A stretch of DNA of 64,000 nt, taken from Akkermansia muciniphila (GTDB lineage: Bacteria > Verrucomicrobiota > Verrucomicrobiia > Opitutales > Opitutaceae). Both the position numbers and the translations under genes were made by a program. The DNA is taken from positions 1 to 64,000 of the forward strand of contig CAMCZZ010000015.1 in the NCBI GenBank assembly GCA_945888375.1, read 5' to 3'. Shown piece after piece: positions 1 to 12,090 of the stretch; position 1 is the stretch's first letter, and the number at the start of each line of letters is the position of its first letter. The notes below the pieces were generated by a model that was not told the origin of the DNA, did no database searches, and saw nothing but the letters and a program-made list of their open reading frames with translations.

Positions 1-32
1 CGGCGGTCCTCGCCCCCTTGGGTTGTTTCCTC

Positions 33-500
33 GTTTCAATCCGCGCCCCGATCCGAGGACCGGGGCGACCGCCACCACGACATGCCGGCTGTGCTCGTCG
101 CTCCAGTTTCAATCCGCGCCCCGATCCGAGGACCGGGGCGACATTTGGAGGTTAAGAAGGGTGGGGAAGGTCATCTGTTTCAATCCGCGCCCCGATCCGA
201 GGACCGGGGCGACACGACCTCGTGCAGCTCGCCCGCGGGCAGTTCTTGTTTCAATCCGCGCCCCGATCCGAGGACCGGGGCGACTCGCCGCTGCAATGGC
301 CTAACCAACCAACCACCGGTTTCAATCCGCGCCCCGATCCGAGGACCGGGGCGACGGCCTTCAGCGGCTCGCCACATGAGCCACTCTCCGTGTTTCAATC
401 CGCGCCCCGATCCGAGGACCGGGGCGACCTGCTTGCCGGCGAATACGCCGAAGGGGTGAAGGAGTTTCAATCCGCGCCCCGATCCGAGGACCGGGGCGAC
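33..500 (-). CRISPR. Type I-C CRISPR array, 7 repeats visible, continues off the left edge
   Basis: Seven identical 37-bp repeats lie at 33-69, 106-142, 177-213, 248-284, 319-355, 392-428 and 464-500. The six spacers between them are 34-36 bp, and bases 1-32 are most of a further spacer. On the plus strand each repeat begins GTTTCAATCC and ends CGGGGCGAC. In transcript sense (minus strand) it begins GTCGCCCCGG and ends GATTGAAAC, the usual 3' handle of type I-C repeats. CGCCCCG and CGGGGCG inside the repeat form a 7-bp hairpin stem, the usual target of Cas5c processing; type I-C has no Cas6. The leader and cas2 lie to the right, so new spacers are expected to enter at the 464-500 end. Confidence 0.98.
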
Positions 501-687
501 CGCGTTTAGTTTTTAATGCTAAACACTAAGGGGTTATAAGTGCTAATCGCGAAACTGTCAAAGAACAGAAAGACCACGGCATCGCTTTAACATAACTATC
601 TCTCACCACACTAAAAACCAAGCGGTTACACACTTCGCGAAGGGGTGCAGGGGAGGACAAAGCGGAAGGTTCGCCTCTTTTACCTCT
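501..687 (-). promoter_or_regulatory. CRISPR leader
   Basis: This stretch between the first repeat and the cas2 stop is much richer in A and T than its surroundings and holds no ORF that I would call. It sits where a type I-C leader should be, downstream of cas2 and next to the newest repeat. It contains the promoter described separately. It also has an inverted repeat, GTTTAG (504-509) and CTAAAC (519-524), separated by 9 bases. That repeat lies close to the repeat junction, near the predicted transcript start. Confidence 0.8.
533..561 (-). promoter_or_regulatory. Sigma70-type promoter for pre-crRNA
   Basis: On the minus strand a perfect -35 box TTGACA (plus-strand 556-561) is separated by exactly 17 bases from TATAAC (533-538). 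Transcription would start near 526, about 25 bases before the leader-proximal repeat that ends at 500. Position, direction and spacing all fit transcription of the array. The match is seen directly; activity is inferred. Confidence 0.75.
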
Positions 688-984
688 TCACAAAGTCAAG
701 GTGTCCTCCACTACGTTTACGGGCTGCACCGCGCCGTAATGTTCGATCCGATCCTTAGCCGATTGATCGATAAAATACACGCGAAGAGAATCCTGTTCCG
801 TATCAATCGCTGCAAGCAAACGGGTCTTCAATTCCACCCATTCTTTTTGACCGAGCTGCATTTCAAAGACGGATTTTTGCACCCGCACGCCATAGGAGGT
901 GCATGCTTTAGCAACACGGCGCAAGCGGCGAGCCCCGGCCCGCTCTTCCTTGGTGCAAACATCGTAGGTGATAACCAGGAACAT
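688..984 (-). CDS. cas2: CRISPR-associated endonuclease Cas2 (type I-C)
   Basis: This 98-aa protein has the usual Cas2 size and start, MFLVITYDVCT, with the conserved Asp at the end of the first beta strand. GVRVQKSVFE is typical of the second half of the ferredoxin-like fold, and SLRVYFID matches the third conserved strand. Cas2 is the dimeric scaffold of the Cas1-Cas2 integrase that inserts new spacers. It is the last gene of the operon before the leader, and 14 bases separate it from cas1 upstream, so the two are surely co-transcribed. Confidence 0.97.
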   Translation of the reverse strand: MFLVITYDVCTKEERAGARRLRRVAKACTSYGVRVQKSVFEMQLGQKEWVELKTRLLAAIDTEQDSLRVYFIDQSAKDRIEHYGAVQPVNVVEDTLTL

Positions 985-998
985 TATTAACCTCTTGT

Positions 999-2036
999 TT
1001 AACTAAACAGATGCGGAGTGTAGTCCAAATCCGAGCGCAAAGCCCGCGCCAATAATTTGGCCTGGATAAACACCAATTGGCCGTGGCGCACTTTTTCCTG
1101 AAACAGAGGGTGGTTGGCTTCCTCGAGTTTTCTTTGCTGGTAGGCCGATACCAGGGCTTTTCTAGCCGTCTCGCTCAACTCGACGGCACCGCCTTCACGG
1201 TGAACGAACTGGCTAACCTTTAACTCACCACGATTGAATAGCGTTAACGCGAGCCGCTCCACCCAAGGGCGAAACTCCTCCATCAGATCCAGCGCCAGTG
1301 ACGCACGTCCCGCCCGGTCGGCGTGCAGGTAGCCGACAAAGGGGTCCAGCCCCACCGCCGTGAGCGCCGAAACACAATCGTGCCGGAGCAACGCATACAA
1401 AAACGAGAGGGTGGCGTTGATCGCATCGCGAGGGGGGCGACGACTCCGCCCATCGAAGGGAAAACTCGCCCGCAACGCCGGACGCAGATGCAGGGCAAAC
1501 ACTTCAAAATGCAGTGCCGCCGCGCGGCCCTCCACGCCCCGAATCACATCCGCATCGTCGGGCGTGCGGCCGAGCTCGCGCAGCAGGTGGGCGTGGGTTT
1601 CGGCGGCGATGCGCAGGCGCTCGCGATCCTCCACGCCGGCGGCGTCGCGCGCGCTTCGCGAGAGGAGCCAGCGCACGTTGTGGAGTTTACCCGCCACGAA
1701 GGCGCGGGCCAGCGCGGTCGAGCGGGCGGGCGAGGAGGCGGCGGTATGCTGGGCGCGGCGCAGCAGGACCGAGCCCTGGGGGACGCCCTCCACGCGCGCC
1801 TCGAGCCGGCCCCAATCGGTGAAAAAACACACGCTAGCGCCGTGTTCCCAACACAGGCGCATGGCCGAGGGCGACACGTAGATGTCGGCCCCGAAAACGA
1901 AGACCGACTCCAGGTTATGGACGGGCAGCGAAAGCTTGAGCTGCTTCTCATGCTCGACACGCAGGGCGAGGCCATCGCGGCGCAAGGAAAGACCCGGAGT
2001 CAGCAGGTAGAGGACGTTTTGCAGAGTCTGGGCCAT
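999..2036 (-). CDS. cas1: CRISPR-associated endonuclease Cas1 (type I-C)
   Basis: This 345-aa protein is the spacer integrase and matches the length of type I-C Cas1. It opens MAQTLQNVLYLLTPG, followed by the beta-rich N-terminal domain. The helical domain carries the expected metal ligands: Glu169 in RGVEGRAA, His238 in GYLHADRAG and Asp250/Glu253 in LDLMEEFRPW. It starts 17 bases after the vapC-like stop, so a toxin-antitoxin pair separates it from cas4, which normally adjoins it. The catalytic residues all appear intact. Confidence 0.97.
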   Translation of the reverse strand: MAQTLQNVLYLLTPGLSLRRDGLALRVEHEKQLKLSLPVHNLESVFVFGADIYVSPSAMRLCWEHGASVCFFTDWGRLEARVEGVPQGSVLLRRAQHTAASSPARSTALARAFVAGKLHNVRWLLSRSARDAAGVEDRERLRIAAETHAHLLRELGRTPDDADVIRGVEGRAAALHFEVFALHLRPALRASFPFDGRSRRPPRDAINATLSFLYALLRHDCVSALTAVGLDPFVGYLHADRAGRASLALDLMEEFRPWVERLALTLFNRGELKVSQFVHREGGAVELSETARKALVSAYQQRKLEEANHPLFQEKVRHGQLVFIQAKLLARALRSDLDYTPHLFS

Positions 2037-2053
2037 CGCTTGGCGTCTGGGAA

Positions 2054-2494
2054 TCAGGCGGGCGGGATCACGTTCATCGGGCGCAGACCGAAATGGGGGG
2101 CGGCGGCGAGCAGGTGGCGGTCGTTGGAATAGATTTCCTTAAACCCGGCATCGGCGGCGGCGCAGAGGTGGAGGCAGTCGGCAGAGCGCAGAAAGAGCGT
2201 GGCGGGCAGGGTTTGATAGGCGGAGTAGGTGGTCTCCAAAAGCTCAGGCGTAACGGGCAAAAAGGATACGATGCCGTCGGTGCAATCCTGGGAAAATTGC
2301 TGCATGTGCTCCGCTACCTCCGGGGCGCGCAAACGGCCTTCGCGCAGGTGACGATGAAACACGGACGCGACCTCGATTTTAGCCAGCGCCACGCTCTGCA
2401 GCGAGCCGGCCTTAAGCGCGACCGACCTGACTTCGCCGTGGCCGAGTTCGGGCAGGTAGCACTTGGCGAGGTAAGTGCTGTCGAAGTAGATCAT
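2054..2494 (-). CDS. PIN-domain ribonuclease toxin (VapC family)
   Basis: This 146-aa protein is predicted to be a Mg-dependent endoribonuclease toxin. The four acidic residues expected of a PIN active site are visible: Asp5 in YFDSTYLAK, Glu41 in LAKIEVASV, Asp106 in SADCLHL and Asp125 in YSNDRHLL. The start codon overlaps the stop of the Phd-like gene as ATGA (2491-2494), the usual antitoxin-toxin coupling. The cassette lies between cas4 and cas1 with the same orientation, 17 bases before cas1. The cellular RNA target cannot be read from the sequence. Confidence 0.92.
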   Translation of the reverse strand: MIYFDSTYLAKCYLPELGHGEVRSVALKAGSLQSVALAKIEVASVFHRHLREGRLRAPEVAEHMQQFSQDCTDGIVSFLPVTPELLETTYSAYQTLPATLFLRSADCLHLCAAADAGFKEIYSNDRHLLAAAPHFGLRPMNVIPPA

Positions 2495-2736
2495 CGGGCG
2501 TCGCGTTCTTCGGAGATCATCTGGCCGCTATCGAGATCGGACATTGGCATGGACTGGAGCTTGAGAAAACCGGGACGCAGACGACGGTGAGCGAAGGTGA
2601 GGCGGGCGGGCTCGGCGACGGCGACCAGACGGGCGACGGTCTGGCCGCGATCGGTGACGGTGATGGGTTCGGTGGCGGCCTGGCGGACGTAGTGGCCAGT
2701 GCGGGTGTGGAGTTCGCGGATGGAGATGGTTTTCAT
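2491..2736 (-). CDS. Phd/YefM-type antitoxin
   Basis: This 81-aa protein begins MKTISIRELHTRTGHYV, the typical Phd/YefM N-terminal DNA-binding fold. It continues with PITVTDRGQTVARLV, the second conserved block of the family. I chose the ATG at 2736 because the reading frame further upstream has no family similarity and runs into cas4. It should neutralise the PIN toxin encoded immediately downstream with a 4-base overlap, and may autoregulate the pair. The 56-base gap after cas4 could hold a private promoter. Confidence 0.88.
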   Translation of the reverse strand: MKTISIRELHTRTGHYVRQAATEPITVTDRGQTVARLVAVAEPARLTFAHRRLRPGFLKLQSMPMSDLDSGQMISEERDAR

Positions 2737-2792
2737 CGGAAAAAGAAGAGCGACAGCAAGATGTGTCCAATGTGTCACATTGCGGGAGGCGG

Positions 2793-3416
2793 TCAATACT
2801 CGCGCGGTTCAAAGAGGCGGGCGCGGCGGGAGGGAAGGGCGGCGGCCTCGGGCAGGCAGGCGGGGCGGAGGGAGCAGCCGTCGCAACGCGGGGTGAGCAC
2901 GGCGGCGGGCGCGGCGGCGCGGGCAAGGGTGGCGCGGAGGGCGTCGAGCGTGGCGAGGGTGAGGGAGCGGAGTTGGGCGTCGAAGACGACCTCGTCGCGT
3001 TTGGCGGAGGCGGCGTGGAAGATGAGGCCGGACTCGATGCGGAGGCCGAACATTTCTTCGAGGCAAAGGGCCTGGGCGCAGAGTTGCACCTGATCGTTGG
3101 ACCAGCGGCGGGAGGGGCCTTTTTTGTATTCGACCGGGCGGGCGGCGGCGATGTGGGTGGCGTCGGCCGGATCGCGGCGAACCTCGACGAGGTCGGCTTT
3201 GCCGGAGAGGCCGAGGGTGTCGGAGAAAAGCGGGAGGGCGCGGAGCAGTTCCCAACCGGCGCGGTGTTCGTAGCCGGGGGTGTCCACGGCCTCGTGGGCG
3301 AGGTCGCCGAGGAGGGTGTGCTCGTTGGTGCCGCGAAGGCCGTCCACGAATTTCAAGTGGGCGCGGCGCTCGCAATAGAGGTGGTCGTTCAGGGCGCTGA
3401 GGGGAAGCGGGTCCAT
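2793..3416 (-). CDS. cas4: CRISPR-associated exonuclease Cas4
   Basis: This 207-aa protein trims and selects prespacers by PAM for Cas1-Cas2. The N-terminal Cys of the Fe-S cluster is in LYCERRAHLKF. The RecB-like nuclease motifs follow in order: His in LAHEAVD, Asp in GLSGKADLVE, Glu-x-Lys in PVEYKKG, and QVQLCAQALCLEEM. The three C-terminal cluster cysteines are in CDGCSLRPACLP. All expected motifs are present. It is flanked by toxin-antitoxin cassettes on both sides: the Fic set ends 11 bases upstream and the Phd/VapC set follows. Confidence 0.96.
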   Translation of the reverse strand: MDPLPLSALNDHLYCERRAHLKFVDGLRGTNEHTLLGDLAHEAVDTPGYEHRAGWELLRALPLFSDTLGLSGKADLVEVRRDPADATHIAAARPVEYKKGPSRRWSNDQVQLCAQALCLEEMFGLRIESGLIFHAASAKRDEVVFDAQLRSLTLATLDALRATLARAAAPAAVLTPRCDGCSLRPACLPEAAALPSRRARLFEPREY

Positions 3417-3427
3417 GGGTGATAGGG

Positions 3428-3943
3428 CTACTGACCATGTTTTAAGGGGGCTGCGGAGTCCACGGGAGAATCCGCGACCTCGGCCGGGGCCGGGCGGCGA
3501 GCGGCTTTGAGCTGGGCGATCCGTTGAAGGAGGGCGCTCTGGGCCTCGCGTTCGGTGCGTAGGGAATCCAGGACGTGGGCGAGGTGTTCCTCGCGCGGGA
3601 GGCGGGCGTGGCGGTTAAAGAACGAGAAGGCTGGGCTGGGGCGGCGTTCGATTTCGGGGCTTGGGGTGTCGAGGTCGGCTTGGTAGTCGGCGCGTTGGGA
3701 ATCGACGCGTTTTTCGGCCTCGGCTTGGAGCTGGGCGTCGTTGAGGGCGGCGAGATCGTAGCAAGCGGGGCTGTGCTGGCGGATGACTTCCCAGATCGCC
3801 AAGGGGATTTCGATGCGGAGGCCGCGCGGGGTGGCTTCGAAGTCGCAGCCGCCGAGATCGAGCCAGACGTTTTTCGCGGGGTCGAAGCATTCCTCGAAAA
3901 GATGAAAGGAAGGGCCCGAAACGAGGGAGCTTTTGGTGGACAT
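3428..3943 (-). CDS. Unknown protein between Fic toxin and cas4
   Basis: I do not recognise this 171-aa protein. From the ATG at 3943 it reads MSTKSSLVSGPSFHLFEECF, then a compact aromatic-rich segment (WLDLGGCDFEATPRG, EIPLAIWEVIRQHSP). A charged helical C-terminal half follows, with LPREEHLAHVLDSLRTEREAQ likely forming a coiled coil. It is probably soluble, with no signal peptide or membrane segment. It starts 17 bases after the Fic stop and ends 11 bases before cas4, so it is in the same transcript. It could be a third part of the Fic cassette, a cas accessory protein or a passenger. A longer frame starting at 4000 overlaps the fic gene and is less likely. Confidence 0.6.
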   Translation of the reverse strand: MSTKSSLVSGPSFHLFEECFDPAKNVWLDLGGCDFEATPRGLRIEIPLAIWEVIRQHSPACYDLAALNDAQLQAEAEKRVDSQRADYQADLDTPSPEIERRPSPAFSFFNRHARLPREEHLAHVLDSLRTEREAQSALLQRIAQLKAARRPAPAEVADSPVDSAAPLKHGQ

Positions 3944-3960
3944 GGGGGAAAGATGTGGGG

Positions 3961-4488
3961 CTACGCTGATGTATCGGCTCGAGCGAAACGCTCCCGCCAC
4001 ACCGCCATGAGAGGTCGCCAGTCGAGGCGGTCGGCGGCTTCAAGCGCGGTAAAGTAAGTGGCTCGGGCGGTCTCGCCTTCGGCGGCCAGCACGACGCGGG
4101 GTAGATCGAGGCGGCGGAGCAGTTCCAACAGGAACAAGCGAATGGTCCGCCCGTTGAAATCTCGAAACGGGTGGACAGTGAGGAAACGCCCTTCGGCGAA
4201 GGCCAGATACTCGAGAGTGAGGTCGGACAAAGCGGCGGAAGCCTCATCCCAACGAACGGCGAGATCGGCGGCGTAGGTTCGCATATCCAGCGGAACCTGA
4301 TGGGGCGGGGGCGGGCGCAGCCGCCCCACGCTCACCTCAATGTCGCGCCAACGCCCGGCCCAATCCGGCACGAGATCGGCGCCGAGGCAGGCGTGCAGAT
4401 CGAGCAAGAGGTGCTCGTCGAGCGGGCGCGGGGCGAAAACATCCTGATAAAGCGCGGCCTCGGCCAGGGCGACGCGCTCGGCCAGCAA
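3961..4488 (-). CDS. fic: Fic-domain toxin (probable AMPylase)
   Basis: Fic proteins transfer AMP or another nucleotide monophosphate to target proteins. The active-site loop HPFRDFNGRTIR is present (residues 106-117 from the TTG at 4488), with His, Phe, acidic residue, Asn, Gly and both Arg in place. The usual first Gly is Phe, which also occurs in some Fic proteins. The helix upstream (LTLEYLAFAEGRFLTV) and the C-terminal part (YFTALEAADRLDWRPLM) fit the family. The frame stays open upstream to GTG 4710, but that overlaps the antitoxin. Conserved-looking residues (ATRWIETTRGILSYQQ) lie upstream of the TTG without an ATG, GTG or TTG nearby. The true start may be ATT 4533 or a frameshift. Confidence 0.85.
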   Translation of the reverse strand: MLAERVALAEAALYQDVFAPRPLDEHLLLDLHACLGADLVPDWAGRWRDIEVSVGRLRPPPPHQVPLDMRTYAADLAVRWDEASAALSDLTLEYLAFAEGRFLTVHPFRDFNGRTIRLFLLELLRRLDLPRVVLAAEGETARATYFTALEAADRLDWRPLMAVWRERFARADTSA

Positions 4489-4493
4489 AGGGG

Positions 4494-4706
4494 CTAGTTG
4501 CTGGTAGCTGAGGATGCCTCGCGTGGTTTCAATCCAGCGGGTGGCGTTATCCGGGCGAGTGTCGCGCGGATGGTCTCCAGCGGCACGGGTTCCCCCTCGA
4601 AGGCCATGCTCTGGGCCACATCCGCCGGGATTGCTTCCCAGCGGTGACGCAGCTTGGTCTCCGCCGGGAGGCGGCGCCAGCGGGCGATGTTTTGGGTCCA
4701 AGTCAT
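4494..4706 (-). CDS. Small Fic antitoxin (VbhA/class I type)
   Basis: This 70-aa ORF starts at ATG 4706, 40 bases after the cas7 stop. It contains SMAFEG at residues 33-38, an exact match to the (S/T)xxxE(G/N) motif. In class I Fic modules that motif pushes a Glu into the Fic ATP site to block AMPylation. The flanks (RHRWEAIPADVAQ before, EPVPLETIRATLARI after) fit the helical antitoxin. The size is close to VbhA. It ends 5 bases before the TTG of fic and overlaps the longer fic frame. It is easily lost behind the long fic frame that begins at 4710. The inhibitory role is inferred from the motif and position. Confidence 0.8.
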   Translation of the reverse strand: MTWTQNIARWRRLPAETKLRHRWEAIPADVAQSMAFEGEPVPLETIRATLARITPPAGLKPREASSATSN

Positions 4707-4746
4707 GCACGAGGAGTGTGCCGATAGAGGCCGGGGCGTCAACCGG

Positions 4747-5616
4747 CTAGAGCTTGCGGTGGAGCTTGATGCCGGCGGGCAGGTTGGCCTCGTCGATGGA
4801 GAGCGCGTAGTCGGCGAAGTCGCGGGCGACGGTGACGCCGGGTTTGGCGGAGATTTTGACGCGCTCGAAGAGTTTATGGGCGGGGGCATTGCCGAGCGGG
4901 GTGGCGTGCTCGAAGACGAGCAGGGCTTGCGGGGCCATGGTGCCACGCGAGGCGGAGCGGTCATGATCGAACATCATGGCGAGCGCCTGCCAGAAGAGTT
5001 CGAGGTCGTCGGTGGTGAAGCCGGTCTCGTTCGCGAGATTGGCCGAGATAAAGCCATGGCAGCGGTAGAGGCCGTAGGGGATGAGGTTTTTCCGGCCCAT
5101 CGTTTGATTCGGCGACTCGGCGTCCTTGGCCTCGGCGACGGCCATGCGGGTGATGCTGACATCGAGCGGCAAGACGGGGTCGATGCTGCGGGAAAAGCTG
5201 AGCTGCACCGGGCCGCGCACCTGCCCGGCGTTGACGCCGGTGGACATGACGGCGCCAAAAGTGCGCACGTCGAAGTAGCGGGCGCACATCTTGGCTCTGG
5301 CGGTGGAGACTTGGTCGCGGGTGGTGCCTTTCTTGGCGTCGATCTTATGCCCGAGGTCGTCGTGGGCTTTTTGGATGCGCTCGTTGAGCACGGCGCTTTG
5401 CTGGATGAAGATATCGTAGCCTTCGGTGCCGCCGGGTTTGGCGATTTGCACGAAGTTGCGGATCTTACGTTTGAGGCAGACGTCGGAGACGAGGCCGTGC
5501 ATATCCTGCGGGTCTACGCGAGGGGAGTTGGCGGCGTCGGGGTCGCCGTTGGGGTTACCGTCTTTGCAGTCGAAGAGGTAAACGAAGTCGTAGCGGGCGA
5601 TGAGTGGCTGGGACAT
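4747..5616 (-). CDS. cas7: Cascade backbone protein Cas7 (Csd2, type I-C)
   Basis: This 289-aa RAMP protein forms the helical backbone of the I-C Cascade along the crRNA. The start is typical of Csd2: a strand (ARYDFVYLFDCKDGNPNGDP) followed by HGLVSDVCLKRKIRNFV. TFGAVMSTGVNAGQVRGPVQ in the centre matches the conserved Gly-rich part, and NLIPYGLYRCHGFI the later block. It lies 50 bases downstream of cas8c and is followed by the Fic antitoxin rather than directly by cas4, so the canonical cas7-cas4 junction is split by the insertion. Confidence 0.96.
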   Translation of the reverse strand: MSQPLIARYDFVYLFDCKDGNPNGDPDAANSPRVDPQDMHGLVSDVCLKRKIRNFVQIAKPGGTEGYDIFIQQSAVLNERIQKAHDDLGHKIDAKKGTTRDQVSTARAKMCARYFDVRTFGAVMSTGVNAGQVRGPVQLSFSRSIDPVLPLDVSITRMAVAEAKDAESPNQTMGRKNLIPYGLYRCHGFISANLANETGFTTDDLELFWQALAMMFDHDRSASRGTMAPQALLVFEHATPLGNAPAHKLFERVKISAKPGVTVARDFADYALSIDEANLPAGIKLHRKL

Positions 5617-5666
5617 GATAAGTAGTGGTGTTGAGGATGTGGGAACGGATGATGGCGGGGGATAAA

Positions 5667-7415
5667 TCAGGTGTTGGCGGCGGCCGTGGCAGCGGCGGCT
5701 TCTTTGCGCTCGGCGGTGCGGCGGCGGTAGTCGGCCTTTTGGTGGTAGTAACCGAGGGCGAAACGGCCTTGGGCCTCGAGGTCGAGCGAGGCGGGGAATT
5801 TAGCTCCGAGGGCGTCGGAGATTTCTTCGAAGTCTTTGCGCACGTTTTCGGCGATACCCCCGCCGGCCTTGGCGAGGTGGAACTGGGCGTTGCGGTGGAG
5901 GCGGCCCATGACGAGGGCGGGGGTGACGCTGGCGCTGGCGTAAAAGCGCTCGACCACGCCGGCGTTGACGCCTTCAAGGGCGAGGTATTGCAGGCGATCA
6001 AAGACGGCGAAGAGTCGGCCGCAAAGGTAGGCGGGGTGGCGGGATTCGGGATCGAGGGCGGTGGTCATGGTGGTGTGGTTGGGTGAGTGGGCGGAGCGAT
6101 TGAGGTAGGCGCGGATGAGGGCCATGCGAGCGGGGTTGAGGCGTGGATCGGAGGCGTCGCCGGGGCCTTTGTTTTCGATCTGCTGGCGACGCAGGGCGGC
6201 GGCGAGGGCGGTCTGGGGAAGGGGCGTGCCGCGCAGGGCGGCGTAGAGTAGCTGGGTGGGGATTTGAGGAGGGAGTTCGTCGATCTTGTCGCGCACCATG
6301 GCGTAGAGTAGGCGACCGAGTTTGAAGGCGTTGTCCTCGCGGATGCCGTCGGGTGCGATGATCGTCAGGTCGGTGAACCAGTTGCGGACGTGGGCCTCGA
6401 CTTCGGGCACGGTAGATTCGAGCCAGTCGCGCACGACGATGCGGGCACCGTTGCCCGAAAGGCTCATGGCGTAGTAGGCGTTGGGCGTAAGTGCGGAAGG
6501 CGCGATGCCTTTCTGGGCGGCGGTGAGCAGGTTTTTGACGTCGGCCTCGTCGGCGGCGGTGAGCAGGGCGAAGAGGGCGGTCGGAGCTGGTTCGCGGGTC
6601 CAGTGGAGGTGGACGGCGTCGTTTATCCGCAGGCCTCGGGGGATGAGGGCGTTTAGTGCGGAGCGGAATTTGAGTTCGGAATCGGGGCTGACGGCGGCGT
6701 TTTGGGCCTGCTCCAAGCCGTAGGAAGTGAAGCTGTCTTTATCGAAGGAGATGAGGTTGGTGCCGGTGGCCAGACCGCCGGGCACGCCCTTGATCTTTTC
6801 GGTGGTGTCGAGCACCGCGCCGAGCCGCCCTGAGGCGAGGCAGACACGTTGGCTGAGGGTGGTCGAAGCGCGGAGGGTTGAGCGCCGCTCACGCCAGAAG
6901 GTTTTCAGGGTGGGGTCGTCGAGGAGTTGTTCGCCGGAGATCGAGAAGGTGGCGTTGTCGGTGGGCTTGGCTTTGGCGGCGATGAGGGCGGCGTGCAGGC
7001 GGGCCAGCTCGGCGTCGTTTTCGAGGAAGGCGAGCAGCGCGGTCAGTTTGGGGGCGGCGGCGGGCGCACGGACGATGGCGTCGCGGAGGAGTTCTTTGAA
7101 GTAGGCGTGTTGGACGCGGCGGCCTTCGGCTTTTTCGGGAGCCTTTGGGTTTGGTATCAGGACGGCGCGCTCCAGACTGTCGGCAAGGAAGTGGGATTTG
7201 TCGCCTTGGTTGAGCTCGTTGGGCGAGGTGAATGCGCGGAGGAGTTTCTTGGGCTGCGGCTTTTTGACGGTGGGGTCGTCGTAGAGCGGGATGGGGTCGC
7301 CGGAGAGCGCGCCATGGGTGTCGAGGGAAATGAGCCAGTGGATGGACGTGGCCTCGAAGTCAGGATCGCCGAGGTTTTCTCGCTCTGCGTAGGCGAGGAG
7401 GGCTTGGAGCATCAT
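5667..7415 (-). CDS. cas8c: Cascade large subunit Cas8c (Csd1)
   Basis: This 582-aa protein is the large subunit of type I-C Cascade, which reads the PAM and recruits Cas3. It begins MMLQALLAYAERENLGDPDF, as Csd1 proteins do. Later blocks such as FTSYGLEQAQNAAVSP and YYAMSLSGNGARIVVRDW are typical. I chose ATG 7415 because it overlaps the cas5c stop as ATGA and is preceded by a strong Shine-Dalgarno sequence, GGAGGTG, seven bases upstream. The C-terminus is Ala- and Lys-rich. In type I-C an internal start within cas8c often yields a separate Cas11c small subunit; I could not place it here. Confidence 0.96.
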   Translation of the reverse strand: MMLQALLAYAERENLGDPDFEATSIHWLISLDTHGALSGDPIPLYDDPTVKKPQPKKLLRAFTSPNELNQGDKSHFLADSLERAVLIPNPKAPEKAEGRRVQHAYFKELLRDAIVRAPAAAPKLTALLAFLENDAELARLHAALIAAKAKPTDNATFSISGEQLLDDPTLKTFWRERRSTLRASTTLSQRVCLASGRLGAVLDTTEKIKGVPGGLATGTNLISFDKDSFTSYGLEQAQNAAVSPDSELKFRSALNALIPRGLRINDAVHLHWTREPAPTALFALLTAADEADVKNLLTAAQKGIAPSALTPNAYYAMSLSGNGARIVVRDWLESTVPEVEAHVRNWFTDLTIIAPDGIREDNAFKLGRLLYAMVRDKIDELPPQIPTQLLYAALRGTPLPQTALAAALRRQQIENKGPGDASDPRLNPARMALIRAYLNRSAHSPNHTTMTTALDPESRHPAYLCGRLFAVFDRLQYLALEGVNAGVVERFYASASVTPALVMGRLHRNAQFHLAKAGGGIAENVRKDFEEISDALGAKFPASLDLEAQGRFALGYYHQKADYRRRTAERKEAAAATAAANT

Positions 7416-8131
7416 GAGGCACCTCCGAGTTGCGGGCGGACTTCGGACCAAGCGGGGACGGTGACGACGCCGTTTATCAAGGTGGCGCGGAAAAAGGTGA
7501 TCTGGGGGCGTGCCTCAATCTTACCGGGAACCCAGCTCTCACCGACGTCGAGATCGAAGACGTCATAAAGCATGAGGCCGAGGTCAGCGTCGCGGTTGAG
7601 TTCGGGAGCGACCTGCATGGCGGCGGCGGTGGCGGGCTCGTAGTGGGCGGGGAACTCGCGGCAGCCGAAGCTGGGCTGGTGGAAACACTGGCCCTGCTCG
7701 ATGCGGCGGCGGGCCATGCCGTAGTATTTGCCGAGGTTGTCGTCACCGGTGGGTTCGTCGTAGCATGACGGGCGCTGGCGGGGGCGGCCTGCGAGGCGGG
7801 TGAGTTCGAGGCTGGCCTCAATGACGTAGTCCACTTGGCGGAGAGCGAGGGTGTTTCGCTGGGTGCGATCCTCGTCGGCGAAGAGCGGCTCAGGGTTGCG
7901 CGAGGCCTTCGACTTCACCTCGTTGCGGCGAAAGGCGAGGAACTGGATGGGGCGGCGCACGGCGATGCGGTGGATGCGCCAGCGGAATTGAGGTTTGTAG
8001 AGGATGGCCTCAAGCAGGCCGCGGGCGGCGCTGGGCGTGATGACGGGGTAGCTGACGCGCTCGACCTTCATCTCGGGACGGGTGAAGCAGGCGAGGTCGC
8101 CCCAGGCGCGGAGGTAGATGGGTTGGTTCAT
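7412..8131 (-). CDS. cas5c: crRNA-processing endonuclease Cas5c (Csd5)
   Basis: This 239-aa protein replaces Cas6 in type I-C: it cuts the repeat hairpin and stays on the crRNA 5' handle in Cascade. It begins MNQPIYLRAWGDLACFTRPE, the conserved RAMP strand of Cas5c, followed by ITPSAARGLLEAILYKP. GKYYGMARRRIEQGQCFHQP and FGCREFPAHYE are typical later blocks. The ATG at 8131 overlaps the cas3 stop as ATGA, which supports this start over a longer reading frame. The 3' end also overlaps the cas8c start, so cas3, cas5c and cas8c are translationally coupled. Confidence 0.96.
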   Translation of the reverse strand: MNQPIYLRAWGDLACFTRPEMKVERVSYPVITPSAARGLLEAILYKPQFRWRIHRIAVRRPIQFLAFRRNEVKSKASRNPEPLFADEDRTQRNTLALRQVDYVIEASLELTRLAGRPRQRPSCYDEPTGDDNLGKYYGMARRRIEQGQCFHQPSFGCREFPAHYEPATAAAMQVAPELNRDADLGLMLYDVFDLDVGESWVPGKIEARPQITFFRATLINGVVTVPAWSEVRPQLGGAS

Positions 8132-10431
8132 TGGCAAAGTTGATCGAGGGAGGGTTCTCCGAGGCCGAGCTGTTCGTCGTAGTGGCCGTTCCAGAAATAG
8201 AAATCGGTGTCGGGGAGGGGTTGGACGATGACGCCGCGCGCGAAGGCGGGAGTGTATGCAGAGAGATAGAGGTTCACCGAGTAGCGTTGCACAAGCCGCC
8301 ATTCGTCGCGTGTAAGGTGTTTTTGTGTGCGCATTTTGGCGATGAGAGCCTTGCCCTCGCCCCACTCCACGACGACGGAGCGAGTGCCATCGTCGATGAG
8401 GGAGCAGGCGCGGGCGGCGGCGGGGAAATCGAGTTTGGCCGAGGCGGCGTAGGCGGGGTCGTCCTGCGCGGAGGAGGGGCCAAGCGTGCCGTAGAGGCGG
8501 GCGAAGTAGGCGGTGTAGGTCGCGGGATCGTGCAGGTCGGCGTCGGGGTGCTCGTGGAGAAAGGCCTCAGTGAGTTTGGTCGCCTGTTCGTAGGTGCCGC
8601 GCTGCATAGCGTGATCGAGAGGGCGGAAAATAGTGACTTGACCCGGCTCGGTTTGGCGACCCTCGCGGTTGCAGCGGCCTGCGGTCTGGATGATGGAGTC
8701 GAGCGGACCGGCGGCGCGGAAGACGCGGGGGAAATCAACGTCCACGCCGGCCTCAATGAGTTGGGTGGAAACGAGACGGCAGGGCTCGGGATGAGCGCGG
8801 TTGAGGCGGCGGCGAATCTCGGCGAGCTGCTGCTGACGATGCGCCGGGCACATGGCGGACGAAAGGTGGAAACGATGCTCGGGAGGGAGGGCGTTGAACA
8901 GGTCGCGGGCATGACGCTTGAGGTTCACCACGCACAGAACCTGCGGGTAACGGGCGAGTTCGTCGGCGAGCTCGGGCCAAGTGGGGGCCTGTGCGGGTGA
9001 GCGGCGGACGATACGGGTGCGGCGCAGACCGTCGGCCATGATTTTGGGCTGGGAGGAGATTTCGACCGGGGACCAGCCGCCCGGAATGGCGGCGGAGGCG
9101 GCGGCGAAGGCGGGCTGGGTGGCGGTGCCAAAGACGGCGGTGACGCCGTAGTCGCGCACCAGGGTGGTGACGCTGCTGAGGAGCGAGGGGACGAGGCGGG
9201 CGGGCAGGGTTTGCACCTCGTCGAAGAGCACGATGGAGCGGGCGATGTTGTGCAGTTTGCGACACTGCGAGGGGCGGTGGCCCAAGAGGCTCTCGAAGAA
9301 CTGAACGTTGGTAGTGACGATGATCGGGGCGTCCCAGTTTTCCTGGGCGAGGCGGGCGCGGCGCAGGCTCTCGTCCTCGGCGTCGGCTTTCAGGTCGTCA
9401 CGGCGTTCGGCGGGGGCGACGGCGCTGTGGTGTTCGAGCACGTAGTTGGGGCCGAAGTGGGGCGCGAGCAGTTCGCGATAGATGCGGGCGGTCTGCTCGA
9501 TGATGCTGGTGTAGGGGATGACGACGATGATGCGGCGGAGGCGGGCGGGATCGTCGGCGGGCAGACAGGCGTTGTGCGTGGCGGCGTGACGGAGGGCGAA
9601 GGCGAGGGAGGCGAGGGTTTTGCCGCTGCCGGTGGGGGCGGTGAGGGTGAAGAGGCCGGGTGGGCGCTCGGCAGCGGCGAGGGCGTCTTGGAGGAGCTGG
9701 CGGCGGAGTTGGTTGACGAAGCCTTCGGAGGATTTGGCGGCGAGAGATGCGAGCAGGTGGGCGAGGGCGGACTCGGGTTGCAGGGGCGGCGGCAGGCGGC
9801 GTGCAGCCTGGTCGGGGGCGAAGTGCGCCTCGGTATCGAGGAAGTCCGCATCGACGAGGCAGGAGAAAATCAAACGCGTGCGGAGCGCGGTGGCGAAGAG
9901 CGCCGCTGGGGTAGTGGCAAGCGGGGCGGGAGTGGGTGAGGCCGGCACGAACACGTCGTCGTCGGCCATGCGGGCGGTGAGTTGAGCGAGAGATTCGGGG
10001 AAGCCGTTGAGCTTCGCGGCGGAGTCGGGGCTATTGAGGTTTTTGAGGCGGGATTTGAGGGCTTCGAGGGATGTTTCGGCGTCGTTTTCCGCGAAGGCAG
10101 GCATGCCGGTGTGGTGGCCCTCAATGGCGAAGGCGGCAGGCAGGTGTTTGTGGGTGGTCGCGGCGGCGAGCGTGCCCATCGACCAGTGGTTAATGCCGTG
10201 GATGCGGGGATCGCGGAGGCGGGCTTGGAAGCGAGCGGAGTATTTCCCCAGGTCATGCAGCAGGCCAGCGAGGCGGGCTTCGGCGGCGGCTTCGGGGCCC
10301 ATGGGGGCGGCGAAGCGGGCGGCCAACTCGGACACGTTGCGCAGGTGCTCGGCTAGGGGTTGCCATTTGCCAGAGGACTCAGGCAACCGCGTGCCGTCAG
10401 CGTCTTCGGCGGTGTGGGCGTAGTAGGGCAT
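8128..10431 (-). CDS. cas3: CRISPR-associated helicase-nuclease Cas3
   Basis: This 767-aa protein unwinds and degrades target DNA after Cascade binding. The N-terminal HD nuclease domain shows His29 in AEHLRNV, His59-Asp60 in LLHDLGKYS and a later His in GINHWSMG. The SF2 helicase part carries Walker A TAPTGSGKT, the DEVQ box in IVLFDEVQTLP, motif III in VFGTATQP and motif VI in QTAGRCNREG. TQLIEAGVDVDFP is motif V. All key residues look intact, so interference is probably functional. It is the first cas gene after the WYL regulator, 60 bases downstream of it. Confidence 0.97.
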   Translation of the reverse strand: MPYYAHTAEDADGTRLPESSGKWQPLAEHLRNVSELAARFAAPMGPEAAAEARLAGLLHDLGKYSARFQARLRDPRIHGINHWSMGTLAAATTHKHLPAAFAIEGHHTGMPAFAENDAETSLEALKSRLKNLNSPDSAAKLNGFPESLAQLTARMADDDVFVPASPTPAPLATTPAALFATALRTRLIFSCLVDADFLDTEAHFAPDQAARRLPPPLQPESALAHLLASLAAKSSEGFVNQLRRQLLQDALAAAERPPGLFTLTAPTGSGKTLASLAFALRHAATHNACLPADDPARLRRIIVVIPYTSIIEQTARIYRELLAPHFGPNYVLEHHSAVAPAERRDDLKADAEDESLRRARLAQENWDAPIIVTTNVQFFESLLGHRPSQCRKLHNIARSIVLFDEVQTLPARLVPSLLSSVTTLVRDYGVTAVFGTATQPAFAAASAAIPGGWSPVEISSQPKIMADGLRRTRIVRRSPAQAPTWPELADELARYPQVLCVVNLKRHARDLFNALPPEHRFHLSSAMCPAHRQQQLAEIRRRLNRAHPEPCRLVSTQLIEAGVDVDFPRVFRAAGPLDSIIQTAGRCNREGRQTEPGQVTIFRPLDHAMQRGTYEQATKLTEAFLHEHPDADLHDPATYTAYFARLYGTLGPSSAQDDPAYAASAKLDFPAAARACSLIDDGTRSVVVEWGEGKALIAKMRTQKHLTRDEWRLVQRYSVNLYLSAYTPAFARGVIVQPLPDTDFYFWNGHYDEQLGLGEPSLDQLCQ

Positions 10432-10491
10432 TTAAGCGGGGGGGGCGCGGGCTGAATACTGCGAAGTTCGTGATATCGTGCGCCTCCAACT

Positions 10492-11613
10492 TTAGCGGGT
10501 AAGGCGGGCCACCCGGTGTCCCGCCCGATCTTTTCCGGAATTTTTACGCGTTGAACCCAAAGCGCCGATTTCCGGGGCGTAAGCTGAGGCCATGGCGGCG
10601 ATCTCGACGGCGAGGTTTGCGCGCAATTCCGGCGGAGCCAGCGCTTCAACGTGGCCCCCACTGGCAAGGATACGGCGAGACACGTCGATAACGTTATTCA
10701 GTCGAAAGGTCGCCTCAGCACCTCCATCGGGGAGGTCACGCAGCTTTTGCGTCGTATGCCAGGGGCGTTCGCGGACATAAGGCGCGGCGATGGCATCAAA
10801 TCGCAGACGGACTTCGATTTCGGTCGTTCCGGTGAAACGACCTAGGCTGCCAGCGAGATAGGTCTTAATTTTCTCGGGCGGCGGGGGCGTGAAGCTCCGG
10901 CCTAGGGCTGAGATTGTCTGGATACGGGTTAGCAGGAAATTCCTCCAACCTTCGCGGGAGATATCCTCGGCCACGAGCATCCAGCGGTGCTCCAAATAGG
11001 CAAGGTGGAGGGGTCGCACGGCACGGCGTTCAGGCAGTGCTTCGCCGGGCTTTTGATAGGTCAGCATCAGTTCGCGACGGGTGATAATGGCATTTAACAG
11101 ACCAGCGAAGTGGCGTTGTTCAAAGGAGTTGTTGTCTGCTTCCTCCTGATGCAGCACAGCACGCAGATCGGCTGCGGGTAAAGAAACGGCTGCTCCGGCA
11201 AAGCGGGCGATTTTTTCCAACGTCGCCGTCAGGGTGCGACCGAGCGGAGTGCCTTCCCAGGCAGCAAAAGTGCGGCCGGCGAGCACCACAGCAAGGGCTT
11301 CATCGGCGTCGAGCCGGAGTCCGGTTAGAAGGTCAAATGGGGCGGTGTAGCGGTAAGTGCGGGCGGCGGCGTCCCAAGCGATAGGAGCGCGATGAAAATC
11401 GCGCAGGCGCTCGATGTCTCGCTTCACGGTGCGGGCGGAGAGTTCGTGTTCCCGCGCGAACCCTGCCGCGGAAACACGCTGACCGGTTGCCAAGCGGCGG
11501 TGTAATTCGATCACCCGGGTGCTCGCAGCGGGCCCGGCGGAAGCAGCAAATCTTCGGTCTGAGGCGGAAAGCACACGCCAATTTTGCATAAGTGCTTCGA
11601 TGGGTAAAGCCAT
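10492..11613 (-). CDS. WYL-domain transcriptional regulator of the cas operon
   Basis: This protein of about 373 aa has an N-terminal helix-turn-helix (RVIELHRRLATGQRVSAAGF followed by SARTVKRDIERLRDF) and a central WYL ligand-binding domain. The latter is seen in REL MLTYQKPGEALPERRAVRPL and HLAYLEHRWMLVAEDI, with a WCX-like C-terminal extension. It lies directly upstream of cas3 on the same strand with a 60-base gap, so it is the first gene of the CRISPR transcript or a leader regulator of it. WYL proteins are known CRISPR regulators in other types. Start candidates are GTG 11640, ATG 11613 and ATG 11589. The role here is inferred from position. Confidence 0.85.
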   Translation of the reverse strand: MALPIEALMQNWRVLSASDRRFAASAGPAASTRVIELHRRLATGQRVSAAGFAREHELSARTVKRDIERLRDFHRAPIAWDAAARTYRYTAPFDLLTGLRLDADEALAVVLAGRTFAAWEGTPLGRTLTATLEKIARFAGAAVSLPAADLRAVLHQEEADNNSFEQRHFAGLLNAIITRRELMLTYQKPGEALPERRAVRPLHLAYLEHRWMLVAEDISREGWRNFLLTRIQTISALGRSFTPPPPEKIKTYLAGSLGRFTGTTEIEVRLRFDAIAAPYVRERPWHTTQKLRDLPDGGAEATFRLNNVIDVSRRILASGGHVEALAPPELRANLAVEIAAMASAYAPEIGALGSTRKNSGKDRAGHRVARLTR

Positions 11614-11825
11614 GACTCCAAAACCGGGAATGCCCCGCACAGCAGCAAAGAGAAAGTGCTTCCGGGGCTGTTGGCGCTACCCGCCTCCTTCTTAGTGCAG
11701 GCAAAATCGAGGGAAAGGCCCGCTACACAGAGCGATAACGCAAGGCATCCGGACACCAAACCCTTCTCCAACGGGGTGGCGGTTGAGGTCGCACCCGGCG
11801 CAGGACACGCACCCGCAGAAAACAA

Positions 11826-11854
11826 AAAACCGCCACGTTTGCGCGTGGCGGTTT
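11826..11854 (-). terminator. Rho-independent terminator of tRNA-Arg
   Basis: An 11-bp perfect inverted repeat (AAACCGCCACG at 11827-11837 and CGTGGCGGTTT at 11844-11854) has a 6-base loop. On the minus strand it runs into TTTTTTGTTTT, just downstream of the tRNA 3' end. The region from here to the WYL gene start (11614-11825) shows no gene I can support. Confidence 0.85.
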
Positions 11855-11859
11855 AAAAA

Positions 11860-11936
<77 letters not shown>

Positions 11937-12090
11937 GCGATGGGAGGTAAGACAAAGCAAGGTTACGAAAGCCCGCGCAAGCGCTTTTTCAAAAAAAACC
12001 AACCGGGACCCAAACGTCTCCCCCGCGCCACACCGGAAGCGGCAAACCTAAGGTTGAAAAGCGCGCCCCCCGCCTCACTAATCACAACAC

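Follow-up and report, generated by a model that had tools for sequence, protein, structure and literature searches.

Toxin-antitoxin pairs of the class I FicTA type have been defined in PMC5033356 (represented here, like the other papers cited by PMC number, by excerpts); in the Escherichia coli antitoxin EcFicA the motif SRRLEG ends a helix, and its Glu28 binds the second arginine of the Fic motif. The present text concerns a pair of related kind in the first 64,000 nucleotides of contig CAMCZZ010000015.1 from an Akkermansia muciniphila assembly (GCA_945888375.1), a stretch called the window below. We put at about 80% the probability that positions 3961–4710 of the window hold a FicTA-like pair whose antitoxin gene lies entirely, and out of frame, within the fic toxin gene, in a type I-C operon of CRISPR (clustered regularly interspaced short palindromic repeats)-associated, or cas, genes, with split expression of the two proteins and a guard role. 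As in VbhT-VbhA of Bartonella schoenbuchensis and EcFicT-EcFicA (YhfG) of E. coli, a small antitoxin gene directly precedes the Fic core, and the likeness to these systems extends to an [S/T]xxxE[G/N] motif at the C-terminal end of a helix (here in a model), a Fic fold with structure-search Z scores of about 20, and an invariant second arginine. Unlike VbhA and EcFicA, the antitoxin described here shows no detectable sequence kinship with either, and the toxin motif reads HPFxDFNGR instead of HPFxDGNGR; unlike the VbhT and EcFicT pairs, this one has its antitoxin nested whole and out of frame, lies in cas operons, and is fused to Cas3 in some relatives.

Fic genes in cas loci were the subject of an earlier survey by Zhang, Doak and Ye. 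That survey, of 2013, found 10 Fic/DOC genes in type I cas loci, the ones in genomes accompanied by cas3 and one in Geobacter beside an antitoxin (PMC3936711). The Geobacter antitoxin resembled TIGR02612, whereas the antitoxin here matches no family, and the excerpts of the survey report neither a nested antitoxin nor a Cas3 fusion. The type I-G operon of Thioalkalivibrio sulfidiphilus likewise contains toxin-antitoxin pairs, two of them between csb2 and cas4-1 (PMC9638904), a likeness that goes by description only, the types of pair being unspecified in the excerpt. Many toxin-antitoxin modules near CRISPR loci are treated in PMC10910872, from whose excerpts the whole word 'Fic' is absent, and the excerpts of PMC12669027 hold nothing on Fic pairs of this kind. 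CreTA is a toxin-antitoxin guard of CRISPR-Cas (PMC9458426) that consists of an RNA antitoxin and a toxic RNA, whereas both partners here are proteins; Sofic is a phage-defence Fic with the small antitoxin AS1 (PMC12249575), encoded downstream of a class II Fic with no CRISPR link reported in the excerpts, whereas here the antitoxin lies at the 5′ end of fic. An antitoxin gene inside a toxin gene, with an internal promoter and start, is known from RpnS in RpnL (PMC10327210), and the antitoxin gene at 4494–4706 similarly lies within the toxin gene at 3961–4710; however, the small Rpn protein is the toxin's own C-terminal domain read in the same frame, whereas here the frames are related by -1 and the proteins are unrelated. 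Thus, Fic and other toxin-antitoxin genes in cas loci are known, as are intragenic antitoxins, and an out-of-frame nested Fic antitoxin and a Cas3-Fic fusion are unreported in the literature searched, which took in few subscription papers.

The features of the pair are these:

4494–4706, minus strand: antitoxin gene, 70 amino acids, ATG at 4706 and stop TAG at 4496–4494, recognised as an open reading frame (ORF) and by its conserved family
4593–4610, minus strand: SMAFEG inhibition motif (S33-M-A-F-E37-G38), antitoxin residues 33–38, an exact [S/T]xxxE[G/N]
3961–4710, minus strand: fic toxin gene in its long frame, 249 amino acids, probable start GTG 4710, containing the antitoxin gene whole and in the -1 frame relative to it
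3964–4545, minus strand: conserved Fic core, from 'ATRWIETTRGILSY' on, overlapping the 3′ end of the antitoxin gene by about 50 bases
4138–4173, minus strand: Fic active-site motif HPFRDFNGRTIR, from the sequence and the alignment of relatives
4715–4742, minus strand: candidate promoter TTGACG-16-CACACT, the best sigma-70-like match in the 290 nucleotides upstream, with a weak -10 element

The 70-amino-acid ORF, its SMAFEG motif and its spacing to fic had been pointed out in an initial annotation of the window; their coordinates check out, and the strand (minus) can now be added. The antitoxin frame, on whose conservation that annotation had staked its proposal, recurs, again situated at the Fic N-terminus, in Verrucomicrobiota, Pseudomonadota, Acidobacteriota, Rhodothermota and on actinobacterial plasmids. 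Protein and profile searches, which do not depend on the motif pattern, yielded antitoxins 91% identical to that of the window in G007 (same genus), 54–56% in G021 (another genus), 60% in G205 (another family) and 41% in Rhodococcus plasmids. All nine plasmid records matched by the window protein (tblastn) are from Rhodococcus, and in the two of them examined an annotated 63-amino-acid 'hypothetical protein' stands directly ahead of a 'Fic family protein'. A profile scan of the phylum gave matches in 5 of 387 genomes, with G135 (E 3e-4, two stop codons within the match) and G273 (E 8e-4, no Fic on reading) not counted as relatives; in viral contigs, none of 29 stretches fitting the pattern is a relative of the antitoxin. 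A scan of one genome per species returned 149 relatives, of which 80 were retained as the set of loci used below; together with the window, L022, L030 and L031 they make up 84 rows. On this comparative evidence 4494–4706 is a genuine gene.

Because the 80 loci were picked by patterns holding the motif SMA[FM]E[GR]EP, counts of the motif among them are biased. With that proviso, W10, V30, S33, M34, A35, E37, E39, P40 and V41 are invariant in 38 aligned antitoxin rows (partly chosen by motif), and the 84 rows (likewise) divide into SMAFEG (43), SMAFER (33) and SMAMEG (8), so that the motif ends in G in 51/84 and in R in 33/84. The expected conservation of SxxxEG thus stands for S33 and E37 and fails for the final glycine; the last position of the motif is not fixed. 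The antitoxin has no match above cut-off in Pfam, NCBIfam or PADLOC, the Pfam VbhA family matches 1 of the 38 rows weakly (E 0.18), and a search of the PDB by sequence with the antitoxin profile gave a single match (E 0.36) that is taken as chance. Judged by these comparisons the antitoxin family is new, matching no named family. As a separate observation, L107, L108, L111, L113 and L035 are I-G or I-C loci that retain the antitoxin without an intact fic after it and may hold orphan antitoxins, and the I-G locus L022 of G021 has, at 8653–8990, the antitoxin and a fic that ends early after its N-terminal part.

The toxin matches the Pfam Fic family (E 1.9e-11) and the PADLOC candidate defence family PDC-S04 (E 2.7e-20); mobile mystery protein B (TIGR02613) was considered and rejected, as the window protein scores 34.6 bits against a curated cut-off of 124.4. 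The active-site motif reads HPFxDFNGRxxR, with F in place of the usual first G, in each of 45 loci that had been selected with a less strict version of it, and in 35 Fic rows H, P, F, D, N, G, R and the second R are invariant, the classical first G being F throughout. The second arginine (GRxxR), which is the partner of the antitoxin glutamate in known pairs, is therefore kept. The chain chosen for modelling was that of L070 (6001–6753), a relative in which, according to the deposited sequence, antitoxin and Fic share a reading frame; one extra base relative to L044 joins the two frames, and this could be a natural single chain or an assembly error. A model built from Fic rows has a mean predicted local distance difference test score (pLDDT) of 86 and a confident Fic part, with residues 26–39, which include much of the motif, below 50. 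In a structure search with this Fic model the first five ranks are all VbhT or EcFicT (Z 19.1–20.3; VbhT with VbhA, 3shg, at 20.3 and EcFicT with EcFicA, 5jff, at 19.9), followed by Bep8 (19.1) and the class II protein FICD (18.9); the lead of class I FicT is slight, since the last two are close behind. A second model, built mainly from antitoxin rows, makes the antitoxin three helices with pLDDT near 90 and sets the motif at the C-terminal end of the helix formed by residues 15–36. Its Fic part is poor (mean 64), so neither model is confident in both parts, and the four Fic rows of its alignment (A8) are misaligned at their N-termini; mixed alignments A5, A9 and A10, misaligned by MAFFT, were excluded. 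A structure search with the second model gave nothing informative for the antitoxin part. The Fic is predicted from the model to be a toxin with the adenosine monophosphate (AMP)-transferase fold of the VbhT/EcFicT kind, and the best reading of the sequences is a class I FicTA-like pair with a so far unnamed antitoxin family. That the antitoxin is the cognate, class I-like partner of fic, as had been proposed, is supported by the conservation of its frame, the nearness of the Fic model to class I FicT and the second arginine. The Fic core of L103 matches 16 plasmid records (14 from Rhodococcus, one each from Pontibacter and Hymenobacter), with no match at the DNA level.

The long form of fic opens in the window at GTG 4710, four bases ahead of the antitoxin ATG and one base out of frame with it. 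The initial annotation presumed that a gene caller choosing this frame would be in error; both frames look to be in use, so that presumption was probably mistaken. A search downstream of the antitoxin located the active-site motif in 55/84 rows, 48 of them with the motif in the -1 frame; in the remaining seven, Fic is in pieces across frames (five rows), fused to the antitoxin (L070) or a separate gene (Rhodococcus L030). In 71/84 rows the conserved Fic N-terminus, 'ATR[WFY][IVL]ET', could be identified in the -1 frame, 53–58 codons into the antitoxin gene, the other 13 being dropped from the frame test for want of a recognised N-terminus or, in L052, because the antitoxin is cut; the overlap of Fic core and antitoxin is shorter in some relatives and absent in Rhodococcus. 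Stops in the fic frame before the core occur in 18 of these 71 loci, and 17 of the 18 (all except L093) have a start codon 8–12 codons before the core; by their sequence these 17 are ordinary overlapping pairs. Sorting the loci by that start codon, and not by openness of the frame, gives a sharp contrast: the fic frame is open through the antitoxin gene in 50/51 loci without such a start and in 3/20 with one, counts that are not phylogenetically independent; thinned to below 75% identity they become 15/16 and 2/10. When synonymous codons were drawn for the antitoxin proteins of the 53 open loci in keeping with codon use, the fic frame stayed open with a mean probability of 0.33. The lack of T-ending codons in the open group (0/358) was also considered and was discarded as circular, the group being defined by its open frame. 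Among standalone nested loci 35/42 have an ATG in the fic frame at most 25 nucleotides upstream of the antitoxin start, 27 of the 42 exactly at -7, compared with 2/42 and 5/42 in the other two frames and 2/18 in ordinary pairs. A fic that started near its core would leave the upstream frame unconstrained, yet this frame is open in 50 of 51 loci, so it is most likely translated. Thus, the fic frame beginning at GTG 4710 is probably genuine, and the antitoxin gene would therefore be nested out of frame inside the toxin gene.

The candidate promoter at 4715–4742 has apparent counterparts in many relatives. Five of the 84 rows were dropped from the promoter scan and the other 79 thinned to 57 non-redundant loci; the best sigma-70-like match lies in one register four nucleotides wide in 33/57, compared with about 0.8 expected (4 of 291 positions) for a register that was, however, chosen after inspecting the sequences. 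In this common register the last base of the -10 hexamer stands at -10 to -7 from the antitoxin ATG, and it is occupied in 20/27 standalone nested, 7/14 ordinary, 6/10 fused and 0/6 unclassified loci. The scoring matrix approximates E. coli frequencies, from which other phyla may differ. In L112 the sequence TTGAAG-17-GATAAT lies at the expected place inside the cas3-fic ORF and appears in a strict scan as well. RNA from such a promoter would start approximately at the antitoxin ATG and so would not carry the toxin start that lies further upstream.

In 11 loci the fic frame continues upstream without a stop for 2.5–2.8 kb, and tblastn finds a cas3 match there in all 11. The resulting Cas3-Fic ORFs are 927–1866 amino acids long; nine reach the Fic active-site motif, Fic is incomplete in L067 and L075, and that of L112 continues beyond Fic. 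Scanned with Pfam, five of these ORFs all show Cas3 helicase domains with a C-terminal Fic domain. In NCBIfam the L098 ORF covers the whole Cas3g model (854/854 positions) and the best stretch of that of L103 is the first 590 positions of Cas3g, each with Fic behind.

Type I-G Cas3 fused in frame to Fic: L103 2203–5568; L098 3231–6734; L110 3225–6734; L089 3231–6737; L096 763–4104

In the fused loci the linker between Cas3 and Fic contains the antitoxin in another frame, and the hosts belong to Pseudomonadota, Acidobacteriota, Rhodothermota and unassigned bacteria. L098 and L110 are on chromosome-level assemblies, which speaks against assembly error as the origin of these ORFs; in both, moreover, an ATG stands 11 codons ahead of the Fic core and could serve to make Fic as a protein of its own.

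Matches to cas genes were found in 41/80 loci, namely I-C effectors in 5, I-G effectors in 23, cas1/cas2 in 5 and cas3/cas4 only in 8, with the reservations, both of which tell against linkage, that the last class may include other helicases and that the I-G queries were derived from the loci themselves. By layout over the 84 rows, cas genes accompany 1/18 ordinary, 23/43 standalone nested, 11/11 fused (partly by construction) and 8/12 unclassified pairs. Within flanks of 1.5 kb there is a cas match in 36/80 loci (19/80 without counting cas3), compared with 0/17 for unrelated Fic loci of the window's relatives, some of these control stretches being cut by contig ends. On a tree of 56 rows with at least 150 amino acids of Fic, which has several long end branches and many weak forks, the three layouts need 6 changes (mean of 22.7 when shuffled), and I-C and I-G rows are intermixed among the nested Verrucomicrobiota rows, which suggests transfer of the pair between operons of different type. 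Separately, L031, L048 and L053 have no cas match and share an SNF2-like helicase (the L048 copy matches DISARM DrmD below cut-off); other defence neighbourhoods may therefore host the pair.

In the window the pair sits within a type I-C cas operon on the minus strand, composed, along with the array, of the following:

33–501, strand not given: CRISPR array with seven repeats seen, extending to the window start, which is the contig start
688–984, minus strand: cas2, by family match
999–2036, minus strand: cas1c, by family match
2054–2494, minus strand: PIN-domain toxin, Pfam 22.1 bits, just under the cut-off of 23.6
2491–2796, minus strand: Phd/YefM-type antitoxin, by family match, the second toxin-antitoxin pair of the operon with the PIN gene
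2793–3416, minus strand: cas4, by family match
3428–4000, minus strand: ORF of 190 amino acids between fic and cas4, no family match
4747–5616, minus strand: cas7c (csd2), the upstream neighbour of the antitoxin gene, by family match
5667–7451, minus strand: cas8c (csd1), by family match
7412–8365, minus strand: cas5c, matched by its model from residue 83, the true start probably lying further in
8128–10431, minus strand: cas3, HD domain above cut-off and helicase core at 101.6 bits against 102.45

An Rfam scan of 1–12000 gave a single tRNA and nothing else. The Phd/PIN pair (2054–2796), which lies between cas4 and cas1, has no match in the same-genus locus L021, and the 190-amino-acid ORF has no tblastn match in the 80 loci.

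Several points weigh against a nested, guard-like FicTA pair in a cas operon, in addition to the non-independence of the open-frame counts and the reservations on the cas counts given above. Kinship of the antitoxin with VbhA or EcFicA is not detectable by sequence in Pfam or the PDB, and SMAFER, the form in 33/84 rows, departs from [S/T]xxxE[G/N]. The toxin has F for the classical G, and its catalysis may therefore differ. TTG 4701, within the antitoxin gene, is an alternative start for the long fic frame, and in some relatives the first half of the antitoxin gene holds further start codons in the fic frame. The -10 element in the window is weak, and a stricter scan for -10 and -35 elements finds no promoter in this stretch of the window. 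In 39/80 loci the stretch covered contains no cas match, and fic is broken, truncated or missing in 30/76 loci with room for it (L070 being included as fused). Since the loci were found via the antitoxin, all that follows from this last count is that the antitoxin can persist after the toxin is gone, an outcome compatible with a toxin-antitoxin pair and also with a passenger.

The rival that survives best makes the pair such a passenger: a mobile addiction module that inserts into cas operons and has no part in CRISPR function. Besides the loci without cas genes and those with a damaged fic, it can draw on the related pairs on Rhodococcus plasmids, 8/9 of which are typed as conjugative, and on the second, Phd/PIN pair in the window operon. 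However, Cas3-Fic ORFs in 11 loci of several phyla seem beyond chance landing, as does the scatter of I-C and I-G rows across several branches of the Fic tree. We regard the passenger as a real but lesser prospect.

A simpler account of the overlap itself, that this is an ordinary class I FicTA pair in which fic starts inside the antitoxin gene at an unusual codon and the open frame is a by-product of high guanine-plus-cytosine content, is unlikely. The layout does exist in the family, as the 17 of 18 loci with fic-frame stops and a near start attest, and the window is 65–66% G+C here. However, after TTG 4701 the fic frame of the window has no ATG, GTG or TTG until past the start of the Fic core, and the 14 codons preceding the core are also free of ATT, ATC and CTG; moreover, the open frame in 50/51 loci is far above chance, and fic-frame ATGs cluster just upstream of the antitoxin.

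Still less probable is programmed -1 frameshifting, in which ribosomes slip from the antitoxin gene to make an antitoxin-Fic fusion, a chain with its own inhibitor. It would accommodate both the -1 position of the Fic core (48 of the 55 rows with the motif) and L070, where the two are in one frame, but L070, which equals L044 plus a single base, could owe its fusion to an assembly error, and no classical slippery heptamer was noticed by eye in the overlaps inspected. Slippage would also leave the fic frame ahead of the slip site free to be closed, whereas from the first antitoxin codons on no stop occurs at the positions where one could arise. A pair regulated by CRISPR in the manner of CreTA, with an RNA resembling a CRISPR RNA repressing the toxin, is hardly credible: it has in its favour the location in a cas operon and the recurrence (seen by eye) of ten bases of the repeat end (GTTTCAATCC) at 4526–4535 in the antitoxin-fic overlap, but these ten bases differ in relatives such as L037 and probably recur by chance, the antitoxin is a conserved protein, and between the array and 16994 there is no site with at most 3 mismatches in the first 15 repeat bases, more degenerate repeats having been outside that search.

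Under the reading preferred here, a nested FicTA-like pair with split expression, the helix end bearing SMAFEG would enter the Fic active site, its glutamate pairing with the second arginine of HPFxDFNGRxxR as in the known pairs. The toxin would be read on transcripts of the cas operon from a start a few bases before that of the antitoxin, or within Cas3 in some relatives, and the antitoxin would in addition be made from its own promoter on RNA that begins near its ATG and omits the toxin start. Action as a guard is the most likely use of such a pair: if the locus were lost or shut off, for example by a phage, the less stable antitoxin would decay and the toxin would be freed. It is also possible, though on balance doubtful, that fic is an arm of the CRISPR machine itself, made mainly upon transcription of the cas operon, in its long form or as Cas3-Fic, with the antitoxin and its promoter overprinted out of frame on the linker. 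If that were true, Cas3 and its poison could not be separated from the antidote by recombination, and a failing supply of antitoxin during infection would turn the interference enzyme into an AMP-transferring suicide effector.

Toxin-antitoxin pairs have been seen in cas operons before; here their coupling to immunity would be written into the DNA, since the antitoxin, and in many relatives apparently its promoter too, is overprinted on the toxin gene or, in some I-G systems, on the Cas3-Fic linker. The pair also offers an example of an entire antitoxin gene that its toxin gene contains in another frame, the retention of both frames being supported by comparison among relatives, and a new antitoxin family that gene callers may miss because the long frame wins. 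The Cas3 fusions in related systems hint at a link between CRISPR defence and a self-poisoning switch, and a Cas3-Fic protein with its nested antitoxin would permit a direct test of such a suicide switch in a CRISPR effector.
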